From NCBI RefSeq assembly GCF_900142475.1, contig NZ_FRAY01000002.1, forward strand, positions 310,001 through 374,000: DNA of 64,000 bases. Direction: 5' to 3'. The notes below the pieces were generated by a model, which was not told the DNA's origin, made no database searches, and was given only the letters and a program-made list of their open reading frames with translations. Shown piece after piece: positions 8,016 through 30,662 of the stretch. The position numbers and the translations under genes were made by a program. Position 1 is the stretch's first letter. Every line of letters begins with the position of its first letter. The DNA comes from Fibrobacter sp. UWH4 (lineage in GTDB: Bacteria > Fibrobacterota > Fibrobacteria > Fibrobacterales > Fibrobacteraceae).

Positions 8016-9356
8016 ATGGCTCAATTCAATGCCCATTTTAGGAACATCAACGGGGACGACACCTACCCGCTGACCGACGTCATTTACAGGAGCAAGGTGG
8101 ACGGCAGCCTGCTCGAAGTCGAACATGACCGTGCAGCACTTGCTGAGAAGAGCCCCGAAGAATGGAAGAAGCTCTTTGCCGAACGCCGCATGAGCTTTGA
8201 ACCGGCCGACATGAGCGGCATCTGGAGCAAGCGCGAAATGGTGCTCCCCGACATGCCCCTCGAAGACATCGTGACGATGCGCGAAGGCTGGAGCCCGCTC
8301 TTTGACGCAGCCCCGCTGGCCAAGGAAATGGGCATCAAGAGCCTGAAGGTGAAGCTCTGCGGCAACTCCCACACGGGCAGCTTCAAGGACCTCGGCATGA
8401 CGGTCCTCGTGAGCCAGGTGAACCACATTATCAAGAAAAAGATTCACGAAATCGACGCCGTGGCCTGCGCCTCTACCGGCGACACCTCCGCAGCTTTGAG
8501 CGCCTACTGCGCGAAGGCCGGCATCCCGAGCATCGTATTCCTCCCCGCCGGAAAGACGAGCGTTGCCCAGCTGATCCAGCCGATTTCTAACGGCAGCATC
8601 GTGCTCGCCCTCGACACCGACTTTGACGGTTGCATGAAGATTGTGCAGCAGGTCACCGCCGACAACCGCATCTACCTCGCCAACTCCATGAACAGCCTCC
8701 GCGTGGAAGGCCAGAAGACGATTTCTCCGGAAATCTGCCAGGAAATGGGCTGGAAGGTGCCCGACACCGTGATTATCCCGGGCGGAAACCTCGGTAACGT
8801 GAGCGCCCTCGCGAAGGGTTTCGAAGACTGCAAGGCCATGGGCCTCATCGACCGCATTCCGCGCATCATCGTCGCCCAGGCCGAGAACGCGAACCCGTTC
8901 TACCAGGCTTACGAACGCGGCTTCGACAAGCTCGTTCCAATGCAGGCGAAGAAGACACTTGCAAGCGCCATCCAGATCGGTAACCCGGTCAGCTACCCGA
9001 AGGCCGTGCGCGCCATCCAGAAGACGAACGGCATGGTCGTGAGTGTTTCCGAAGAAGAACTCGCGAACGCCGCCCACCGCGGTGACCGCATCGGTCTCTA
9101 CTGCTGCCCGCATACCGGTGTGGCCCTCGGCGCGCTTGAAAAGCTCGTAGCCGCAGGCAAAATCGACAAGGAAGAAAACGTGGTCGTCATCAGCACGGCA
9201 CACGGCCTCAAGTTCACCGAATTCAAGGTGGGCTACCACGAAAAGAAGCTCGAGAATATCTGCTCCAAGTTCGCGAACCCCGTGTTCAAGGCTCCGGCAG
9301 ACCTCGGCGCCGTCATGGACATCTTGAAGAAAGAGATGGCTGAACGCAGAAGATAA
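8016..9356 (+). CDS. thrC: Threonine synthase
   Basis: Makes threonine from O-phosphohomoserine with pyridoxal phosphate, the last step of threonine synthesis in the cytoplasm. The 446-residue product carries 'SHTGSFKDLGM', where K124 is the expected PLP Schiff-base lysine, then 'ACASTGDTSAALSAYCAKAG' (phosphate and PLP contacts) and 'IIPGGNLGNVSALAKGF'. Length fits the class. I placed the start at the ATG at 8016 because AGAGGA sits just upstream; an in-frame TTG at 7989 overlaps the presumed -10 region. It stands alone and ends in a strong intrinsic terminator. Confidence 0.93.
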   Translation: MAQFNAHFRNINGDDTYPLTDVIYRSKVDGSLLEVEHDRAALAEKSPEEWKKLFAERRMSFEPADMSGIWSKREMVLPDMPLEDIVTMREGWSPLFDAAPLAKEMGIKSLKVKLCGNSHTGSFKDLGMTVLVSQVNHIIKKKIHEIDAVACASTGDTSAALSAYCAKAGIPSIVFLPAGKTSVAQLIQPISNGSIVLALDTDFDGCMKIVQQVTADNRIYLANSMNSLRVEGQKTISPEICQEMGWKVPDTVIIPGGNLGNVSALAKGFEDCKAMGLIDRIPRIIVAQAENANPFYQAYERGFDKLVPMQAKKTLASAIQIGNPVSYPKAVRAIQKTNGMVVSVSEEELANAAHRGDRIGLYCCPHTGVALGALEKLVAAGKIDKEENVVVISTAHGLKFTEFKVGYHEKKLENICSKFANPVFKAPADLGAVMDILKKEMAERRR

Positions 9357-9429
9357 TTCGGATTTCAGAATTCGGATTTCGGAATTAATATCTCTGAACA
9401 AAGCCGAAGGATTCCTCCTAAAGAATGTA

Positions 9430-9455
9430 GCTCCGCATAAATGCGGAGCTTTTTT
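9430..9455 (+). terminator. Intrinsic terminator of thrC
   Basis: Nine-base perfect stem GCTCCGCAT / ATGCGGAGC with a 2-base loop, followed by six T residues. It lies 74 bases after the thrC stop. Confidence 0.85.
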
Positions 9456-9556
9456 GCACATGACCGAGCCGAAGAGTTAGCTTTATTTTTGCGGCCTTGA
9501 GTCTTTTGGAAAAAGACCGGTTCCCAAGGCGAGAGAAGCGGCAATGCTTGCATTGC

Positions 9557-9629
9557 CATTTCCGAGCCGCTGATCGGCTGAAAGACATGTTCGCAGACCG
9601 AGCGTCGCGACCGTGCTTGCACGGGCATG
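9557..9629 (+). repeat. 73-bp direct repeat, copy 1
   Basis: Matches 9805-9877 at 72 of 73 positions. It contains AGCCG-CTGAT-CGGCT and CCGTGC-TT-GCACGG hairpins (9565-9579 and 9611-9624). Confidence 0.95.
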
Positions 9630-9804
9630 GCCGACCCCAGAACAGGCGTAGAAAAGGCCGTAAGGCGAGCGCAGCGGCGGCAAACAAGTTTGCCGACATT
9701 GCCGAGCCGAAGAATTTGCTGTAAGACTAACACATAAGACGAGATTCTTACTCTTGTAAAAAGACTAACTCGTAAGGCGAGAGACGCGACCGTGCTTGCA
9801 CGGG

Positions 9805-9877
9805 CATTTCCGAGCCACTGATCGGCTGAAAGACATGTTCGCAGACCGAGCGTCGCGACCGTGCTTGCACGGGCATG
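9805..9877 (+). repeat. 73-bp direct repeat, copy 2
   Basis: Second copy of the repeat at 9557-9629, with one difference (CCAC for CCGC). Its CCGTGC-TT-GCACGG hairpin is at 9859-9872, and a further copy of the same hairpin precedes it at 9790-9803. Confidence 0.95.
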
Positions 9878-9895
9878 ACCGAGGTCCAGAACATG

Positions 9896-9930
9896 CTTTA
9901 TTTACGCGCCATCGAGGCGCGTAAATAAAG
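9896..9930. terminator. Perfect 15-bp palindrome, possible bidirectional terminator
   Basis: CTTTATTTACGCGCC and its exact complement are separated by ATCGA. It is followed at once by a second hairpin (AAAGGC...GCCTTT, 9931-9957). No long T run follows, so it may be a structured RNA element rather than a terminator. Confidence 0.5.
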
Positions 9931-10155
9931 AAAGGCCCCTCTTACGAGGAGCCTTTCCTAAGAAGGAGAAAATATGAATCGGTATGTGGAACCTTGAACC
10001 TACCAGGAGGGGAGCAATGATAGTGTCGTTTCAGGATTTACCCTTCTACCGTTTCACAATTCCAAATATATCCTTTTATTTCGAACCGAGAACTACCAAA
10101 TTGCTTATTTTCTTAATCCGCAACAATTACATTCGTATTGCAAGTAAACTAACAT

Positions 10156-11454
10156 TTACTCTTCGTGGAAAATGATCTTGCACTTCGGAACAAAACGGAA
10201 TCCACCACGACGGTGACGTTCGATTTCGAAATACTTCTTCACGCCTTCGGACGGATGTTCCGGATCGTCAGAGCCGTTGATATGAGCAATGACGCGGTTC
10301 AAGCGGCTTTCGAAGTTCGGACGAAGCGGATCCATGCAAATGGAAGAATCGCGCTTGAATTCACGGTTTTCAAATTCTTCACGGCCCGTAGCGCTGTACT
10401 CGCGAAGCAGGTTGCGCAGGATTCGTGCAGGCACGTTACGCATCAGGTGCTTACTGTTCACTGAAATAGAATCATCGCTCTTGTAGTAGATGACCGTCAC
10501 GGAGTCGTTCATCGCTTCAAGGAGCTGTTCCTGAGCCTTCTGGATCGGTTCCCAGGAATCGAATTCCTGCTTCACGACGGCGCTCATGAGCTTGTTGAAC
10601 GGCTCCGGAGCGACAACGTTTGCCTTATAATCAAAGTAGACCACGCTAGCCGGTGCGCCGTAATAGCAACCCTTATGAATCAGCACGGCACCCACCTTTT
10701 CGTCGACCACATCTTCGGTGGCACGGATGCAGGCCATCTTGCGTTCGGCGTCGAACTCCCAGTCAAGGCCATATTCGTCAAGGCAATCGCCGAAGGTCAT
10801 GTACTTACCGACCTGACGGCCATTCACATAGACACAACCATCATCGCGTACTTCAGCCGTCGCACGGTTTTCGAGAGCTTCAGCAAAAGAGGTCTGGCTG
10901 GCCTTGTATTCGATCAATTCGTAGCGAGGGGTATTCAGGAAAATGGGACCCAACTGCACCAGGCCGTTGAACCAGCGCATGGGGTTCGTGATCAAAAGAC
11001 CCGGAGAATCAAAACGATAGGTGAAGTATTCCTTGCGGTTACCATCCACCAAATCACGGCGGAGGAACTTCGAGTTCGTGAGCAAGGGATAGCGCTTCGG
11101 AATAATGTCAAGGCAGAGCTGACGGACATCTTCGGTCGCATAGAACTGCGATACATAGGGCAGGTAGGAGCGCAACACGCTACGAGCAGGGACTGCCTCG
11201 AACGACGCACAGCGGTCTATAATATTTTGAACAAAGGTATCCGGGTTTTCGCCCCTTTCATAGAGCCAGTTCACCACATTGTTCATAATCAATCGGTGAA
11301 TGCCTTCATCTACAGACAAATCTTCGAAATAGATGTCATTAAGAACCTTGACCGTAAAACGCGGATCGCGTTTGATGAGAGTCAAAATATCCTTGACGGG
11401 ATACTTAATGAGTAACTCGATATGAGTCAGCTGTAAGAATAGGTTTGAAAGCAC
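10156..11454 (-). CDS. Conserved-looking protein of unknown function, possible C-terminal winged helix
   Basis: 432 residues, no signal peptide, no membrane segments. I do not recognise the family. The first ~110 residues are helical ('HIELLIKYPVKDILTLIKRDP'). The middle is mixed alpha/beta. The last ~90 ('FESRLNRVIAHING...KKYFEIERHRRGGFRFVPKCKI') resemble a winged-helix DNA-binding fold with a basic wing, as in response-regulator effector domains. That suggests nucleic-acid binding but is weak evidence. It starts with GTG; a GAGG site 7 bases upstream supports it. It is divergent from mutL with a 112-bp gap. Confidence 0.7.
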   Translation of the reverse strand: MLSNLFLQLTHIELLIKYPVKDILTLIKRDPRFTVKVLNDIYFEDLSVDEGIHRLIMNNVVNWLYERGENPDTFVQNIIDRCASFEAVPARSVLRSYLPYVSQFYATEDVRQLCLDIIPKRYPLLTNSKFLRRDLVDGNRKEYFTYRFDSPGLLITNPMRWFNGLVQLGPIFLNTPRYELIEYKASQTSFAEALENRATAEVRDDGCVYVNGRQVGKYMTFGDCLDEYGLDWEFDAERKMACIRATEDVVDEKVGAVLIHKGCYYGAPASVVYFDYKANVVAPEPFNKLMSAVVKQEFDSWEPIQKAQEQLLEAMNDSVTVIYYKSDDSISVNSKHLMRNVPARILRNLLREYSATGREEFENREFKRDSSICMDPLRPNFESRLNRVIAHINGSDDPEHPSEGVKKYFEIERHRRGGFRFVPKCKIIFHEE

Positions 11455-20894: not shown

Positions 20895-22326
20895 TGCAGA
20901 ACCCCGCGAAAATAGATTGTAAAATGTCTTCGGACGAAATTTCGCCCGTGATACTCTGAAGCGCCCTGCGCACCAGCTGCATTTCAAAAGCGAGCAGTTC
21001 CACTGCAGGGTTTTTCTCTAGCAGGTCAAGCACGCGGTCAACACCCGCAAGGGCTTCTTCGAGGCAAGACTTTTCTCGTTCACTCGTAATCCAGAGATCT
21101 TCTGCGTTTTCAGATTTCTTGAACAAGACGGCATTCATGACTTTCTTGAGGTCGTCTAGGCCCTCGCCAGTCTTGGAAGAAACATTAAGATGACTTGTAT
21201 CAGGAGATTGCTTCGTCGCTTCGCTCCTCGCAATGACATTTGCGGCCAAGTCGCTCTTCGAAACGACAACAAAATCTGGTTTGAGATCCTTCGACTCCGC
21301 TTGCGCTTCTCCACAAGGTGGATAACAGCCACTAAGGGACTTCGTCCCAAGTGTTGTATAGCTCAGGATGACACCTTCTTTGTTCCCAGCGGAGTTGTTT
21401 CCATCCACCACCAAAATTTTCATATCGGCTTCGTCGAGAATCTCGCGCGACTTTTTCATACTGAGCGCATCGAGTTCGTCAGTCGCCTTGTCCGCAATGC
21501 CCGCGGTATCGATCAGGCGGATTTCACCGCCATCCAAAAACAGACGGACTTCGACAAAATCACGAGTCGTCCCCGGAACATTGCTCACAAGCACGCGGTC
21601 TTCGCCGAGGAGCGCATTCACCAAACTCGACTTGCCCGCATTCGGGGCTCCATAAAGTACCGCGAGCGGGAGCTTGCTCAGATTCGCCTTACCACGAAAG
21701 CTGTTTAGAATTCCCTTGATTGAAACACGGATATTTTCAAACTTCTGTTTCCAGCCGCTAAAATCGGGATCCGCTTCTTCTTCGGCAAAATCCACATCGA
21801 GTTCCAGGCGAGCAGAGATATCCTTGACCTGCGCCGTTAGCGTCGCAATTTTCTTGGAAAGGGCTCCCGAAAGCAGGCGGTGGGCATTTTCCAGCTCGGC
21901 TCGGTTCGCACTGTGAATGACATCGGCCACCGATTCAGCCTGGGTCAAGTCCATCTTGCCGTTCAAGAAGGCTCGGCGGGTGTATTCACCGGGTTCAGCC
22001 AGGCGAACCCCCTCGATGTCACGAATCGCCTGCAGCAAATCGCGGACAATCAGCGGATTTCCGTGCGGGTAAAGTTCCAGGACGTCTTCGCCGGTGTAGG
22101 AATTCGGCGCTTCGAAGTAGATGTACAAGAGGCTGTCAAGCACCTTGCCCGTCTGCGGATCGCGAGCGGTCCCTAGATTCGCCATTCGAGGCACCAGTTT
22201 TTCTGCGGCTCGCGCACCGAACAGGCGCCGAACCACGTCACGGACGTGGGTGCCGCTCACGCGGAGCGCAGCAACGGCACTGACGCCCGCAGGCGTCATC
22301 GGCGCAACAATCGTCAAAGAATCCAT
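20884..22326 (-). CDS. mnmE: tRNA modification GTPase MnmE, carrying repeat-derived inserts
   Basis: With MnmG it makes the 5-(carboxymethyl)aminomethyl-U34 modification of tRNA. Landmarks: N-terminal folate-binding domain, 'RVSGTHVRDVVRRLFG', G1 'GAPNAGKSS', 'GTTRD', 'DTAGI', an SKSD in the NKxD position, and the C-terminal 'FCIGK' with the catalytic Cys. At 480 residues it is ~25 longer than usual. The excess lies inside the G domain: one stretch before SKSD ('LSYTTLGTKSLSGCYPP...') and one after it ('VIARSEATKQS'), both translated from dispersed DNA repeats. Start ATG 22326; no Shine-Dalgarno, a TATCTT lies 7 bases upstream. Confidence 0.93.
   Translation of the reverse strand: MDSLTIVAPMTPAGVSAVAALRVSGTHVRDVVRRLFGARAAEKLVPRMANLGTARDPQTGKVLDSLLYIYFEAPNSYTGEDVLELYPHGNPLIVRDLLQAIRDIEGVRLAEPGEYTRRAFLNGKMDLTQAESVADVIHSANRAELENAHRLLSGALSKKIATLTAQVKDISARLELDVDFAEEEADPDFSGWKQKFENIRVSIKGILNSFRGKANLSKLPLAVLYGAPNAGKSSLVNALLGEDRVLVSNVPGTTRDFVEVRLFLDGGEIRLIDTAGIADKATDELDALSMKKSREILDEADMKILVVDGNNSAGNKEGVILSYTTLGTKSLSGCYPPCGEAQAESKDLKPDFVVVSKSDLAANVIARSEATKQSPDTSHLNVSSKTGEGLDDLKKVMNAVLFKKSENAEDLWITSEREKSCLEEALAGVDRVLDLLEKNPAVELLAFEMQLVRRALQSITGEISSEDILQSIFAGFCIGK
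21203..21238 (-). repeat. Dispersed repeat inside mnmE, translated as RSEATKQS
   Basis: The minus strand encodes VIARSEATKQSPD, the typical translation of a short palindromic repeat (ATTGCGAGGAGCGAAGCGAC...) common in bacterial intergenic DNA. It lies in frame between the G4 and G5 motifs of MnmE. Confidence 0.75.
21330..21376. repeat. Second dispersed repeat inside mnmE (GCTCAGGATGACAC core)
   Basis: Contains GCTCAGGATGACAC (21361-21374), identical over 14 bases to 42194-42207 in an intergenic region, with relatives at 42215-42227 and 50929-50942. Confidence 0.65.
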
Positions 22327-26437: not shown

Positions 26438-26875
26438 TTACTTTTCGATTTCGTACTGAGCAACGACGTTGCCTTCGTTGTCGAGAGCGCGAACAACATT
26501 TTCATCGCGCTGAAGGGTCAGGTTGGCCTTTTCACCCTTGGCAGTGGTCAGTTCCACGGACATAGAACCGTCTTCATTCTTCACAGCGGCAATGGTGTTG
26601 CCCTGGGCGTCCTTTTCGAAGTAGGAATCACCGGAAGCGAGCGGGTTGGAGCCGGTCCAGAATTCGATGGTGTTCAGCACGAGGCCGTCCACGAGGAACA
26701 GGCAGATGCCGTACACCGGCAACCAGAACAGGATGAAGTGGACAATGGAGTTGATCCACTTGTCACCGAGGGTGCCGTTCCAATTATGAAGCTTGTTGAA
26801 GCAAGCGTTTTTGCCATAGCAACCGGAAAGAACGATCATGCCGGCGCAGAGAAGGGTGACAATACCTTTTTTCAT
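26438..26875 (-). CDS. DUF3332 lipoprotein-like membrane protein
   Basis: 145 residues: signal peptide with lipobox LSGC (Cys19), then 'NKLHNWNGTLGDKWINSIVHFILFWLPVYGICLFLDGLV'-type sequence with one strong hydrophobic segment, typical of DUF3332, and a soluble C-terminus of short beta-strands ('GSMSVELTTAKGEKANLTLQR'). The family is common in anaerobes; no function is established. Monocistronic, with an AGGAG site before the ATG. Confidence 0.8.
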   Translation of the reverse strand: MKKGIVTLLCAGMIVLSGCYGKNACFNKLHNWNGTLGDKWINSIVHFILFWLPVYGICLFLVDGLVLNTIEFWTGSNPLASGDSYFEKDAQGNTIAAVKNEDGSMSVELTTAKGEKANLTLQRDENVVRALDNEGNVVAQYEIEK

Positions 26876-27126: not shown

Positions 27127-28647
27127 ATGGGTATTGTTATGAATAAGATGAAGCTTTCTGTATTTGCAGCACTATTTGCTACAGCAACCGCCATGGCTGC
27201 TCCCAAGCCGTTAACCGTCTGGATTATGCCAAACGGGGCCTCTCCTCAAGAGACTCTAGAAAAAAGACTTGAATTGTTTACCAAAAAGACCGGCATCCCG
27301 ACCAAGGTGCAAGTGCTGGACTGGGGTGAAGCCTGGAACCGCATCACGTACGCGCTGTCTAACCAGCAGGAAGCCCCCGACGTTCTTCAGTTGGGTACCA
27401 CCTGGATTCCCTACTTTGCCTCCCGCAACGAAATCAAGCCCTTGAACGAACACCTCAGCGAAATCCAGCCGGCGCGGTTCGTCCCCGTCAGCTGGAATAC
27501 AACGCATATCGATTCAGACTCCATCATCTACTCCGTGCCTTGGTTCATCGACATCCGTCCGGTTCTCGCCAACAAGAGAATCCTTAAGAAATACGGCATC
27601 ACCAGGGAATCGGTCAGGAGCTACGACGGTTTCAGGGACGCCATCCGCAAGGTCAACGAAGCCAATGAAATTTTGGAAGACGGAGCCTATGTCCGCGGTT
27701 ACGCCTTCCCGGGCAGGAACGACTGGAATATCCCCCACAACTTCGCCCCGTGGATCTGGAGCAACGGCGGTTCGTTCATCCAAAAAGACAGTGCCGGCTG
27801 GCATGCCAACATTCTTTCCAAGGAAACGCTGCGCGGTATCGCAAGCTACTTGCATTTCGTGATGGACTCGCTAGTCATGCCCGAAGCCCTGCAATCGAAC
27901 ACGGCCCAGATCGCCCAGCAGTTCAACAACGGTGAACTGGCCTTTATCGTCAGCACCTCCGAAATCGTGATGCAGACCCGCATCCATGGTAACCTGGGCG
28001 GTCTTTCCAATGCACGCATCGGTAGGGACAGCGTCTTGGTGCTCCCGATTCCCCAAGGTTCCAATGGCAGTGTAAGCTTTATCGGAGGATCGAACCTCGC
28101 CATTCCTTCGAACAACACCCGCAAGGAAGCCCTCGATCTTCTGCTGTTCCTGATTAACGACGAGAACCTGGACGCCTACACCAAGCAGATCGGTCTGTTG
28201 CCGCCCTCCAAAAAAGTCCTGCAGAAATGGGCCAAGGATGAAGATTACAAGACTTTGACAATCGCCCTCGAAACGGGACGCACCTATGTTCCGGTTCCCG
28301 AATGGGGTGATCTGGAACAGCTTTTCGGATCCATGTTCAGCACCATCTGGGAACAAATGGAAATTCCATCGCTCTACTCCGAAGACAAGCTGTACGAAAT
28401 ATTCAAACAGTACTCCATTGAAATTGACAAGAAACTGAACTATCCCACAAACAGTTTCATGACCCTTGCCGAATTCAAGGATAGCTGGAACCAGGTCAAC
28501 GCTCCCCTTGAAGACAAGTCAAGCGATTCCGCCAAGGATACGACAACGAGCGTGGCCGACGCCAACCTGAAGAAAGCGCCGTTCGTATTTGTGGCCATGC
28601 TTGTTCTCGGTTTCCTGTTCGCCTTTTTCCGCAAGAAGAAAAAATAA
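27127..28647 (+). CDS. Extracellular solute-binding protein with C-terminal membrane anchor
   Basis: 506 residues. After a signal peptide it has the family 1 (sugar) binding fold: 'LTVWIMPNGASPQETLEKRLELFTKKTGI', 'PDVLQLGTTWIPYFAS', 'IDIRPVLANKRILKKYGI', 'FIGGSNLAIPSNN'. Unlike ordinary periplasmic binding proteins it ends in a linker, an 18-residue hydrophobic helix ('FVFVAMLVLGFLFAFF') and RKKKK, so it should be tethered with its C-terminus inside. No ABC permease genes follow; instead a diguanylate cyclase begins 17 bases later. I infer a ligand sensor rather than a transporter part. Start ATG 27127 with AAAGGAG upstream. Confidence 0.85.
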   Translation: MGIVMNKMKLSVFAALFATATAMAAPKPLTVWIMPNGASPQETLEKRLELFTKKTGIPTKVQVLDWGEAWNRITYALSNQQEAPDVLQLGTTWIPYFASRNEIKPLNEHLSEIQPARFVPVSWNTTHIDSDSIIYSVPWFIDIRPVLANKRILKKYGITRESVRSYDGFRDAIRKVNEANEILEDGAYVRGYAFPGRNDWNIPHNFAPWIWSNGGSFIQKDSAGWHANILSKETLRGIASYLHFVMDSLVMPEALQSNTAQIAQQFNNGELAFIVSTSEIVMQTRIHGNLGGLSNARIGRDSVLVLPIPQGSNGSVSFIGGSNLAIPSNNTRKEALDLLLFLINDENLDAYTKQIGLLPPSKKVLQKWAKDEDYKTLTIALETGRTYVPVPEWGDLEQLFGSMFSTIWEQMEIPSLYSEDKLYEIFKQYSIEIDKKLNYPTNSFMTLAEFKDSWNQVNAPLEDKSSDSAKDTTTSVADANLKKAPFVFVAMLVLGFLFAFFRKKKK

Positions 28648-28664
28648 GCACTTAAGGTAATTTC

Positions 28665-30341
28665 ATGCCTATCGGTTCCTTTTCTGGTTTTTCACGAAGC
28701 ATCGTCTTTAAGGTCTTGCTTGTGCTGATATTCTCCATGACCCTTGTGGTCACGGGGAGTATCTTCATTTTCAATAATAAGCAAACCGACCTGATGCTGG
28801 ACTGGAGCTTCAACAACAACGAAGCCCAGCTGAACCAGATTGCCAATATGGCAAGCCTCGAAATGAAACAGTTCGGCGAAAGACTGACCTTGCTTGCCAA
28901 GACTTCCGAAATCCAGAGCATGGACGCAATGACTGCCGCCAGCTACCTCAAGAGCTTCAATATTTCCTCGCTGTTCATTTCGGGCGAAGTCATTACTCTG
29001 TACGACAAGGACTATCATTTCGTATGCGACAATTCCGTAGTCGGTTTATCGAAGGATCCCGCATACCCCATTGATTTTTCGCGCATCACGCCGCACCGTC
29101 CCTACATCACCCCCTGGTTTAGGGATTCCAAGGACGCTCCGCCCAAACGACTATTCGGCATCACCATTTCGAGCCGCAACGGCGGTGACGGAAGCCTTGT
29201 TGCCAGTTTTTCACTCCGCAGACTCTGGACGAACTTTCCTAATTACACCATCGGCAAGAATGGCTTCCTAGTCGCTACCAACGGAAACGGAGAAATTCTC
29301 TACCACCCTGATTTGAAGAAATGGATGACCGACGTCCACAAGATTTCCGAATTGGGATTGGAAGACATCAACCCGCGCAATTACAAGATCGACAAGGCAA
29401 AGTTCTTCAAACTGAACGACGACGAATCGTACCTGTTGAACATCAACTACAATCCCACTTACGATTTCGCCCTCATATCATTCCAACCCAAGTGCGAAAT
29501 TGACGAGCTGATTTCATCGGCAACACAGGCTAGCATCGCAATCCTGATTGTTTCAATTCTCATTATCCTGATTATCGCCACACGGATGTTCTACATCCTG
29601 GGCGTTCCGATGAACAAGCTTATCCTGCACATCAAGCAGATTACCCAGGGCAACCTGGACATCCAGGAAATCGATGTCGGAACTCGCTGCGACGAAATCG
29701 GACAGCTGGGCAAGGCATTCAACATAATGCACAGCACCATCAAGCGTCAGATTGGCGAACTGAATGCTCATAGGGATATCCTTGAACAGGAGGTCCGTGA
29801 ACGCACCAAGGACCTGGAAGAAGCCAACAAGAAACTCGACCTGATTTCCAAGACTGACGAACTGACGGGACTTCCCAACCGTCGCGACATGAACGAGACG
29901 ATTGCAAACGAAGTCGGACGCGTGCAACGCACCCACAAGCCTTTCTGCTTTATCTTTATCGACATTGACCACTTCAAGAACATCAACGACACCTACGGCC
30001 ATGCCTGCGGTGACGTTATCCTGAAATCGGTCGCACAGACGATCCGCGGTCTGCTTCGCAAGTACGACGTTTTCGCCCGCTACGGTGGCGAAGAATTCCT
30101 GACCCTTCTCCCCGAGACGGATTTGGAAGGGGCGGCCGTCGTCGCCGAACGGTTCCGCAAGCAGATCGAAAAGATGACCGTCCGCTATGCCGACTTCACC
30201 ATCAAGATCACGATTACGCTGGGTGTCGCCAAATACGACGACCGTCTTGGAGCCGACCGAAGCATCCAGATGGCAGACAAGGCGCTGTACCAAGGTAAGG
30301 AAAGCGGTCGAAATCGCGTCATCGTATGGGAACCGGAATGA
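28665..30341 (+). CDS. Membrane diguanylate cyclase (Cache-like, HAMP, GGDEF)
   Basis: Makes c-di-GMP from two GTP. Order over 558 residues: membrane helix (~12-33), a ~250-residue periplasmic region with double-Cache character ('YDKDYHFVCDNSVVGLSKDPAYP', 'GKNGFLVATNGNGEILYHP'), second helix (~288-311), HAMP linker, coiled coil, and a GGDEF domain. The active site GGEEF is at 474-478, preceded by RKYD (465-468), the right spacing for the inhibitory I-site, so product feedback is expected. The solute-binding protein directly upstream is the likely partner. Confidence 0.92.
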   Translation: MPIGSFSGFSRSIVFKVLLVLIFSMTLVVTGSIFIFNNKQTDLMLDWSFNNNEAQLNQIANMASLEMKQFGERLTLLAKTSEIQSMDAMTAASYLKSFNISSLFISGEVITLYDKDYHFVCDNSVVGLSKDPAYPIDFSRITPHRPYITPWFRDSKDAPPKRLFGITISSRNGGDGSLVASFSLRRLWTNFPNYTIGKNGFLVATNGNGEILYHPDLKKWMTDVHKISELGLEDINPRNYKIDKAKFFKLNDDESYLLNINYNPTYDFALISFQPKCEIDELISSATQASIAILIVSILIILIIATRMFYILGVPMNKLILHIKQITQGNLDIQEIDVGTRCDEIGQLGKAFNIMHSTIKRQIGELNAHRDILEQEVRERTKDLEEANKKLDLISKTDELTGLPNRRDMNETIANEVGRVQRTHKPFCFIFIDIDHFKNINDTYGHACGDVILKSVAQTIRGLLRKYDVFARYGGEEFLTLLPETDLEGAAVVAERFRKQIEKMTVRYADFTIKITITLGVAKYDDRLGADRSIQMADKALYQGKESGRNRVIVWEPE

Positions 30342-30482
30342 GTGACGAACGCGGACTACGAGGCTGCCGCCATCGAACTTGCCGCCCTGAAAAAGAACTC
30401 CGAAGGTTCCAAGACGGAAAATTTCCAGGTAAGTTTGGACTATATCGACGACACGTCGGACAAGCAGGATCTTCCGAGCTAG
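30342..30482 (+). CDS. Small ORF of 46 residues directly after the diguanylate cyclase
   Basis: A GTG immediately follows the cyclase TGA and opens a 46-codon frame, VTNADYEAAAIELAALKKNS through DKQDLPS, with codon choice like the neighbouring genes (GCC GCC ATC GAA CTT). It is acidic, with a helical first half. It could be a coupled small protein or the remnant of a longer gene. No family recognised; terminator follows at 30560. Confidence 0.4.
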   Translation: MTNADYEAAAIELAALKKNSEGSKTENFQVSLDYIDDTSDKQDLPS

Positions 30483-30559
30483 CTGATAATGGCAACGGGC
30501 ACGTCAGAACCGCAAGCAGGTTTTGAGTCCCTTTGGCACTAAATTTTTTCTGAATGCAA

Positions 30560-30588
30560 AAAACACCGCGTTTACGCGGTGTTTTTTA
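30560..30588. terminator. Bidirectional terminator between DGC operon and tRNA-Pro
   Basis: AACACCGCG - TTTA - CGCGGTGTT stem with A-run before and T-run after. It ends the plus-strand operon and also lies just downstream of tRNA-Pro on the minus strand. Confidence 0.85.
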
Positions 30589-30662
30589 TCGGGATGACTG
30601 AATTCGAATCAGCGACCTCTTGAACCCCATTCAAGCGCTCTACCAGGCTGAGCTACATCCCG
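30589..30662 (-). tRNA. tRNA-Pro (GGG)
   Basis: Minus-strand cloverleaf: acceptor CGGGATG / CATCCCG, D arm with GCTCAGCCTGGTAGAGC, anticodon stem CTTGA/TCAAG around ATGGGGT (anticodon GGG), T arm with GATTCGAATTC, discriminator A. CCA is not encoded. Confidence 0.93.

Follow-up and report, generated by a model that had tools for sequence, protein, structure and literature searches.

What is the function of a solute-binding protein (SBP) that ends in a membrane anchor, has no permease gene behind it, and is encoded directly upstream of a diguanylate cyclase? This question is raised by a two-gene unit of Fibrobacter sp. UWH4 in a stretch of 64,000 nucleotides (contig NZ_FRAY01000002.1, positions 310,001 to 374,000, forward strand), which is called the window here and whose numbering is used below. 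We consider it probable on balance that the binding protein, named SBP-A, is the subunit of the downstream cyclase that senses beta-glucan oligosaccharides, docks on the periplasmic domain of the enzyme, and changes its synthesis of cyclic di-GMP (c-di-GMP). The basis for this is the anatomy of the two proteins, their strict pairing, the absence of a sugar permease, the kinship of SBP-A with cellodextrin-binding proteins, and the conserved active site of the cyclase.

The two genes and their products

The SBP-A gene (27127..28647, plus strand) begins with an ATG at 27127, ahead of which stands the sequence AAGGAG, and its coding part up to 28644 specifies 506 amino acids followed by a stop codon at 28645-28647. 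Pfam marks the protein as an SBP (SBP_bac_8, E 1.2e-25, and SBP_bac_1, 3.5e-22), PDB relatives and Foldseek place it with the SBPs CbpB and TtBGlyBP, and the nearest named relative, Fibrobacterales bacterium Fibro_02, is 92% identical over SBP-A. The N-terminus, MNKMKLSVFAALFATATAMAAPK, has the look of a signal peptide and no lipobox cysteine, and the C-terminus, APFVFVAMLVLGFLFAFFRKKKK, is a transmembrane (TM) helix followed by RKKKK.

The second gene (28665..30341, plus strand) starts with an ATG exactly 17 bases past the stop codon of SBP-A, has its coding end at 30338 followed by a TGA, and encodes a diguanylate cyclase of 558 amino acids with dCache-like, HAMP, and GGDEF parts, as judged from Pfam, the alignment of homologues, and a predicted model. 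In the Pfam search GGDEF (1.2e-47) and HAMP (4.1e-9) were matched and EAL was not, while dCache_1 (E 0.0021), with 18.1 bits, stayed below its curated cut-off of 45; dCache_1 is stronger in distant homologues, namely, L175 (38.8 bits, 9.9e-10) and the kinase at L049 (56.5 bits, 3.8e-15). Five residues separate RKYD (residues 465-468) from GGEEF (474-478), and R465, D468, and the whole of GGEEF are identical in 68/68 cyclase homologues. The enzyme thus keeps the sequence features expected of an active diguanylate cyclase, a GG(D/E)EF site and an RxxD I-site. Its predicted model (mean pLDDT 82.5) shows a mixed alpha/beta domain between long helices, and Foldseek placed the chemoreceptor model 9a69_B at rank 30 (TMq 0.38); the chains listed in a second structure search match through the GGDEF part only, so that this search is silent on the fold of the sensor.

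An earlier note on this DNA, made from the letters alone, had described the C-terminal TM helix and RKKKK of the SBP, the cyclase start 17 bases downstream, the GGEEF motif with a well-spaced RKYD I-site, and the lack of an ABC (ATP-binding cassette) permease after the SBP gene. All of this is borne out, and what follows SBP-A is the cyclase gene, a hairpin, tRNA-Pro, and minus-strand genes. The end coordinate of 30482 in that note has to be corrected because it is beyond the stop codon of the cyclase, whose frame is ended earlier by the TGA at 30339-30341.

Conservation of the pair

Among 100 relatives, SBP-A homologues of at least 58% identity are present in 53 of the 61 genomes of the genus, that of the window (G000) included. 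Pairing was then counted among the matches listed for 167 Fibrobacterota genomes, taking SBP rows with at least 45% identity to the SBP of L173 and cyclase rows with an E value of at most 1e-38; the rows under these thresholds, which are matches of the type of the paralogue SBP-B and HAMP-region matches, were left out. A same-strand cyclase gene is directly downstream in 84 of 85 SBP-A rows, and the lone unpaired row, that of G064, is truncated at the end of its contig. The paired set amounts to 83 loci in 81 genomes of 8 genera (66 genomes of Fibrobacter, the other 15 spread over seven more genera of its family). A pair not conserved together, which the earlier note had named as a finding against its proposal, is therefore not what this count shows. 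In G029 the SBP-A gene is frameshifted into two overlapping frames next to an intact cyclase gene (L051:6427-7990); the two half rows of this split gene were entered as paired by hand, and the SBP tree and the pocket counts do not include L051.

The loci read in detail were 68 (L051, L052, L079-L140, L173, L174, L175, and L177), of which 67 have a cyclase; the rest of L155-L178, mostly the same records, was left out. At 58 of the 67 cyclase loci an SBP gene directly precedes the cyclase gene in the same orientation (gap -59 to +48 nucleotides), and all 58 of these paired SBP-A homologues have the C-terminal TM helix and the basic end. Distances in the SBP-A and cyclase gene trees are correlated (Pearson 0.95, Spearman 0.91, n = 58), which is owed in part to shared species history. 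The genomes G002, G028, and G043 have a cyclase without an SBP at the ancestral DUF3332 locus and the whole pair elsewhere, without the usual flanks. Both genes of this second-locus pair nest in the clade of the window, with a support of 0.999 in each tree, and therefore the pair seems to have moved, or to have been acquired, as a unit. These draft genomes have a contamination of 1, 8, and 3%, respectively, and the relocated pair may be an artefact of misbinning in metagenome-assembled genomes.

The conserved C-terminus could also be explained as a cleaved sorting signal, in which case SBP-A would be a surface protein for substrate binding or adhesion that is unrelated to the cyclase. In favor of this, we take the TM helix and basic end to resemble PEP-CTERM-like signals. 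In addition, FSU_1047, a protein of Fibrobacter succinogenes S85 that is considered below, is reported in cell-envelope fractions in the available text of PMC4619616. However, a surface location would leave the strict pairing unexplained, no sorting-signal model is among the NCBIfam matches, and the search of the genome for an exosortase gave no match (PF09721, 0 of 1; sortase and rhombosortase were not searched). On the exosortase result we rejected the sorting-signal reading, and its probability is very low.

The likely ligand of SBP-A

The best PDB relatives of SBP-A are the Thermus thermophilus beta-glycoside-binding protein, TtBGlyBP (E 1.7e-59), and CbpB of C. thermocellum (9.1e-56), which align with residues 27-436. 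Proteins of the TtBGlyBP/CbpB type also occupy ranks 1-29 in the Foldseek search with the predicted SBP-A model, which was used just for the ranking of matches, and this ranking agrees with the sequence comparison. W66, W200, H204, N205, W209, W393, and E397 are identical in 58/58 SBP-A rows, while W93 and D142 are invariant in alignment A1, D142 being an E-to-D change relative to E117 of the Thermus protein. The Thermus mutants in the PDB, W41A, W67A, E117A, and W177X, which mark positions chosen by their authors, align with W66, W93, D142, and W200, the last of these by numbering offset, and the ligand positions marked by W41, W67, E117, and W177 of the Thermus protein and by W90 of CbpB are all represented in SBP-A. 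These relatives, the pocket residues, and the Foldseek ranking sharpen the 'sugar-type' protein of the earlier note to one of the cellodextrin/beta-glycoside type. CbpB and TtBGlyBP are the nearest solved relatives and most of their ligand residues are kept in SBP-A, but they belong to ABC importers, the Trp at subsite +3 differs, and the anchor of SBP-A is outside the aligned part. According to the part of PMC9601137 consulted, CbpB binds cellobiose to cellopentaose with a KD of 0.56-1.9 μM and laminaribiose with a KD of 10.7 μM. In the paralogue SBP-B, H204, W209, and N205 are lost in 6/6 rows.

Is there a permease for SBP-A elsewhere?

The kinship with the true import proteins CbpB and TtBGlyBP would also fit SBP-A being the binding subunit of a cellobiose or cellodextrin importer whose permease is encoded elsewhere, with the cyclase as a co-transcribed passenger. 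Such an import role is what the available text of PMC6851124 proposes for FSU_1047. If this is the case, then a sugar-type permease should be found in the genome, which is rated 100% complete. The genome has 17 BPD_transp_1 ABC permeases, and their NCBIfam types are Opp/Dpp/Nik/Yej, polar amino acid, sulfate, taurine/nitrate-like, phosphate, methionine, and phosphonate. By best NCBIfam match, none of the 17 is of the MalF/MalG or Ugp type, i.e., of the sugar type; in a positive control, this search called the permeases of the ABC operon at L046 MalF/UgpA- and MalG-like. Thus, a permease operon elsewhere that uses this protein, which the earlier note had named as the finding that would overturn its proposal, did not turn up. 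Moreover, the SBPs in the related ABC operons (L044-L046) do not have a C-terminal TM helix, and therefore the C-terminal anchor appears to go with the absence of an importer. Along with the strict pairing of SBP-A with the cyclase, these findings make a role in import improbable.

A PotD-like polyamine SBP, encoded at L141:4289-5404 (contig C2 of G000, about 42.3-43.4 kb), is possibly another orphan SBP in this genome, since no PotB/PotC-type permease is among the 17.

FSU_1047 of F. succinogenes S85 and a possible output of the cyclase

As described in the available part of PMC6851124, FSU_1047 is an SBP of S85 that is 31.3% identical to CbpB, is 1.25-fold up on cellulose, and has been assigned to cellobiose import. 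The part of PMC4619616 that was available gives it a mass of 57.575 kDa and a pI of 7.77 and lists five of its peptides for growth on microcrystalline cellulose and none for glucose or acid-swollen cellulose. Identity to CbpB is 28.7-33.1% in the SBP-A homologues (58 rows) and 23.8-25.7% in SBP-B (6 rows), and the SBP-A of L080 has a mass of 57.47 kDa and a pI of 7.77; therefore FSU_1047 is very probably SBP-A. In our literature search FSU_1047 turned up in two papers and its neighbors FSU_1046 and FSU_1048 in none.

Since the one PilZ match found in the genome directly precedes pilM-pilN-pilO (L142:466-3352, contig C2 of G000, about 88-91 kb) and is likely to be a c-di-GMP link to type IV pili, an output on these pili and on adhesion is a natural guess. 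F. succinogenes must adhere to cellulose in order to degrade it. Of the two outputs suggested in the earlier note, adhesion is thus plausible and motility is unsupported, Fibrobacteres being described as thought to lack motility in the consulted part of PMC4704652. In S85 the level of c-di-GMP is elevated about 2.5-fold on cellulose; according to the authors, it is not known which conditions its up-regulated GGDEF proteins respond to (PMC6851124, available part).

We propose that a beta-glucan oligosaccharide in the periplasm, most likely cellobiose or a short cellodextrin, would close SBP-A, which its C-terminal helix would hold at the inner membrane. Closed SBP-A would then dock on the dCache-like domain that the cyclase has in the periplasm, the HAMP domain and the signalling helix that follows it would relay this to the GGEEF dimer, and c-di-GMP synthesis would change, with the RKYD I-site giving feedback on the enzyme. 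In this proposal we infer the ligand, the docking, the sign, and the adhesion output; activation was guessed as the sign because c-di-GMP is higher on cellulose. SBP-A probably serves as a detector of cellulose breakdown products in the Fibrobacter family.

Points against a sensing role and cyclases without SBP-A

Several points weigh against this proposal. General synteny could keep the two genes together, though the flanks vary between clades, and adjacency within one genus is weak evidence because the flanking DUF3332 and DUF1573 genes are themselves widespread. The predicted model of SBP-A is weak (pLDDT 63.9), and in the 12 SBP-A rows displayed Glu takes the place of the Trp that stacks at subsite +3 of CbpB (W296). 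The Trp is likewise missing in the related ABC-operon proteins, and Glu at this position would fit a short ligand, for instance cellobiose. The identification of FSU_1047 with SBP-A is based on CbpB identity, mass, and pI and not on the FSU_1047 sequence, and in the data available from PMC4619616 the protein was undetected on acid-swollen cellulose. The authors ascribe the c-di-GMP rise in S85 to other GGDEF proteins (PMC6851124, available part). The rise is correlative evidence, and the genus has many cyclases; in the genome of the window there are 29 GGDEF and 8 EAL matches and therefore many other c-di-GMP inputs. Finally, among the matches listed no SBP gene adjoins 12 cyclases of the sensor family in Fibrobacter, nor a fragment in G146, and therefore one lineage of Fibrobacter can keep the cyclase in the absence of SBP-A.

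The view that synteny alone accounts for the pairing was considered and is countered by the occurrence of the pair in 8 genera, by the changed downstream flanks, and by the relocated whole pair. The loci L102-L110 have sensor-family cyclases at the DUF3332 locus with no SBP, and in three of these genomes the whole pair is present elsewhere.

The existence of sensor-family cyclases without SBP-A raises the question whether the pairing could be real and docking absent. SBP-A would then titrate the ligand or present it to another receptor, or the dCache-like domain would bind its own ligand and SBP-A would modulate this. A parallel is that the CuaSR kinase of Ruminiclostridium cellulolyticum alone still responds to cellobiose (PMC10384115, available part). 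However, the SBP-less lineage has lost sensor residues that are otherwise kept, for example, W188, which is Trp in 59/59 SBP-partnered cyclases and Glu or Asp in 9/9 SBP-less ones, and it has the lowest ratio of sensor to GGDEF identity (0.50 compared to 0.57-0.73 for the others). We take both as hints. The stem of the SBP-less lineage in the gene tree is long (0.63), and the lineage may be basal or fast-evolving. In addition, the position two residues ahead of the conserved W151 is T149 and not the Arg that we take as typical for dCache domains that bind amino acids, and this too weighs against the rival reading. We regard pairing without docking as unlikely, though less so than import. Interface residues could not be derived from the SBP-less clade: it has lost 13 of 52 conserved sensor columns, and such residues were rejected because the partnered controls lose similar shares (out-group clade, 12/57; L112, 17/59; L175, 19/58).

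Relatives with a kinase output

In G064 the SBP-A orthologue (47%) and a sensor of the same type (30%) each end at contig ends, and this sensor (L111:2-2458) is joined not to GGDEF but to Hpt and HATPase domains, as in a CheA-like kinase; the two genes would be adjacent in the genome. In G094 (L049:6459-10782), a distant relation, a dCache-HAMP-Hpt-HATPase kinase gene is divergent from that of a C-anchored SBP. These kinase-output relatives suggest that the SBP and the sensor stay together as a module while the output is exchanged.

A more far-reaching account, which we offer tentatively and hold a little short of evenly balanced, is that the binding protein of a lost importer became a membrane-tethered cellodextrin receptor that sets c-di-GMP in Fibrobacteraceae, that related Fibrobacterota drive a CheA-like kinase with the same module, that the module is the missing 'on cellulose' input, and that the import role of FSU_1047 is wrong. 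With these two conserved genes as a candidate receptor for cellulose fragments, the question of what the up-regulated GGDEF proteins of F. succinogenes respond to becomes directly testable. If the proposal is true, then FSU_1047 has been misread as a subunit of an importer and the pair shows that transport proteins can turn into signalling subunits with exchangeable outputs.

Comparison with known systems

XylFII-LytS, like the arrangement proposed here, has a separate sensing SBP, which stands there beside a sensor kinase, but the ligand is xylose, the SBP is of the monosaccharide type, and the output is a kinase. The closest precedent is NspS-MbaA of Vibrio cholerae and Sinorhizobium, in which a permease-less SBP gene adjoins, and in fact overlaps, that of a membrane c-di-GMP enzyme whose activity is set by the SBP (PMC8967002 and PMC9993111, each as available in part). 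The Fibrobacter pair has the same arrangement of an SBP gene and a membrane c-di-GMP enzyme without a permease. It does not have a PotD-like SBP and a GGDEF-EAL enzyme: NspS is a PotD-like, polyamine-binding protein described as periplasmic and MbaA is GGDEF-EAL, whereas here a CbpB-type SBP with a C-terminal anchor goes with a GGDEF-only enzyme. The earlier note named binding proteins that feed receptors (chemotaxis, LuxP-LuxQ) but missed NspS-MbaA. In CuaD-CuaS-CuaR of R. cellulolyticum, also a cellulose degrader, a cellobiose-sensing SBP feeds an adjacent HAMP-containing membrane sensor, but CuaD is an N-terminal lipoprotein and CuaS is a histidine kinase that drives transcription of its transporter (PMC10384115, available part). 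In Salmonella, ArtI and the dCACHE_1 c-di-GMP protein STM1987 are both required for the response, according to the consulted part of the review PMC8846402, but ArtI binds arginine and is not an anchored, paired protein of the sugar type. Thus, SBPs feeding c-di-GMP enzymes and a cellobiose SBP feeding a sensor kinase were already known, and what is new is the combination of a C-anchored CbpB-type SBP, a family-wide pairing with a GGDEF-only enzyme, and relatives with a kinase output. In our literature search no paper describing the pair was found.

Tail and flanks of the cyclase gene and other observations

The TGA at 30339-30341 stands where the relatives have a conserved Trp codon, and their cyclases continue in frame through a conserved tail (EPEWVT.ADYEAAAIELA...). 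In the near relative L113 (G037), whose cyclase has 605 amino acids and 95% sensor identity to that of the window, this tail is uninterrupted, and by comparison with it the in-frame remainder of the tail in the window is at 30342..30482 (plus strand). The small open reading frame of the remainder alone has no Pfam match. The loss of the tail leaves the catalytic domain whole, and the TGA therefore probably reflects either a truncation at the level of the strain or an error in the sequence. A hairpin with a T run, found by direct reading at 30558..30587 (plus strand), is the probable terminator of the two-gene unit; it is absent from the listing of the pattern scan, the rule of which wants the T run after the stem. 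Beyond it are tRNA-Pro (30589-30662, minus strand) and then the minus-strand genes. On the other side, the DUF3332 gene (26438..26875, minus strand), identified by Pfam and in the loci of relatives, is a conserved divergent neighbor that marks the ancestral locus.

The second C-anchored paralogue, SBP-B, is encoded directly before a Peptidase_S13 and AmiA-like amidase fusion (L039:6882-8474 and 8476-10611, contig C5 of G000). Similar neighbors are found in L053-L056 and L058, Pfam having been run on L039 only, and SBP-B is an anchored SBP tied to cell-wall enzymes. In G064 and G066 (L042:5191-7907 and L057:4398-7129), the gene of an SBP without a signal peptide overlaps that of a GAF-type GGDEF cyclase without TM helices, apparently a cytosolic SBP paired with a cytosolic cyclase. 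In the window, the minus-strand MnmE gene has an extra stretch at about 21200-21390 that includes IARSEATKQS; matches of MnmE to many other genomes break off near it, at about residues 327-362, and it looks like an in-frame repeat insertion.

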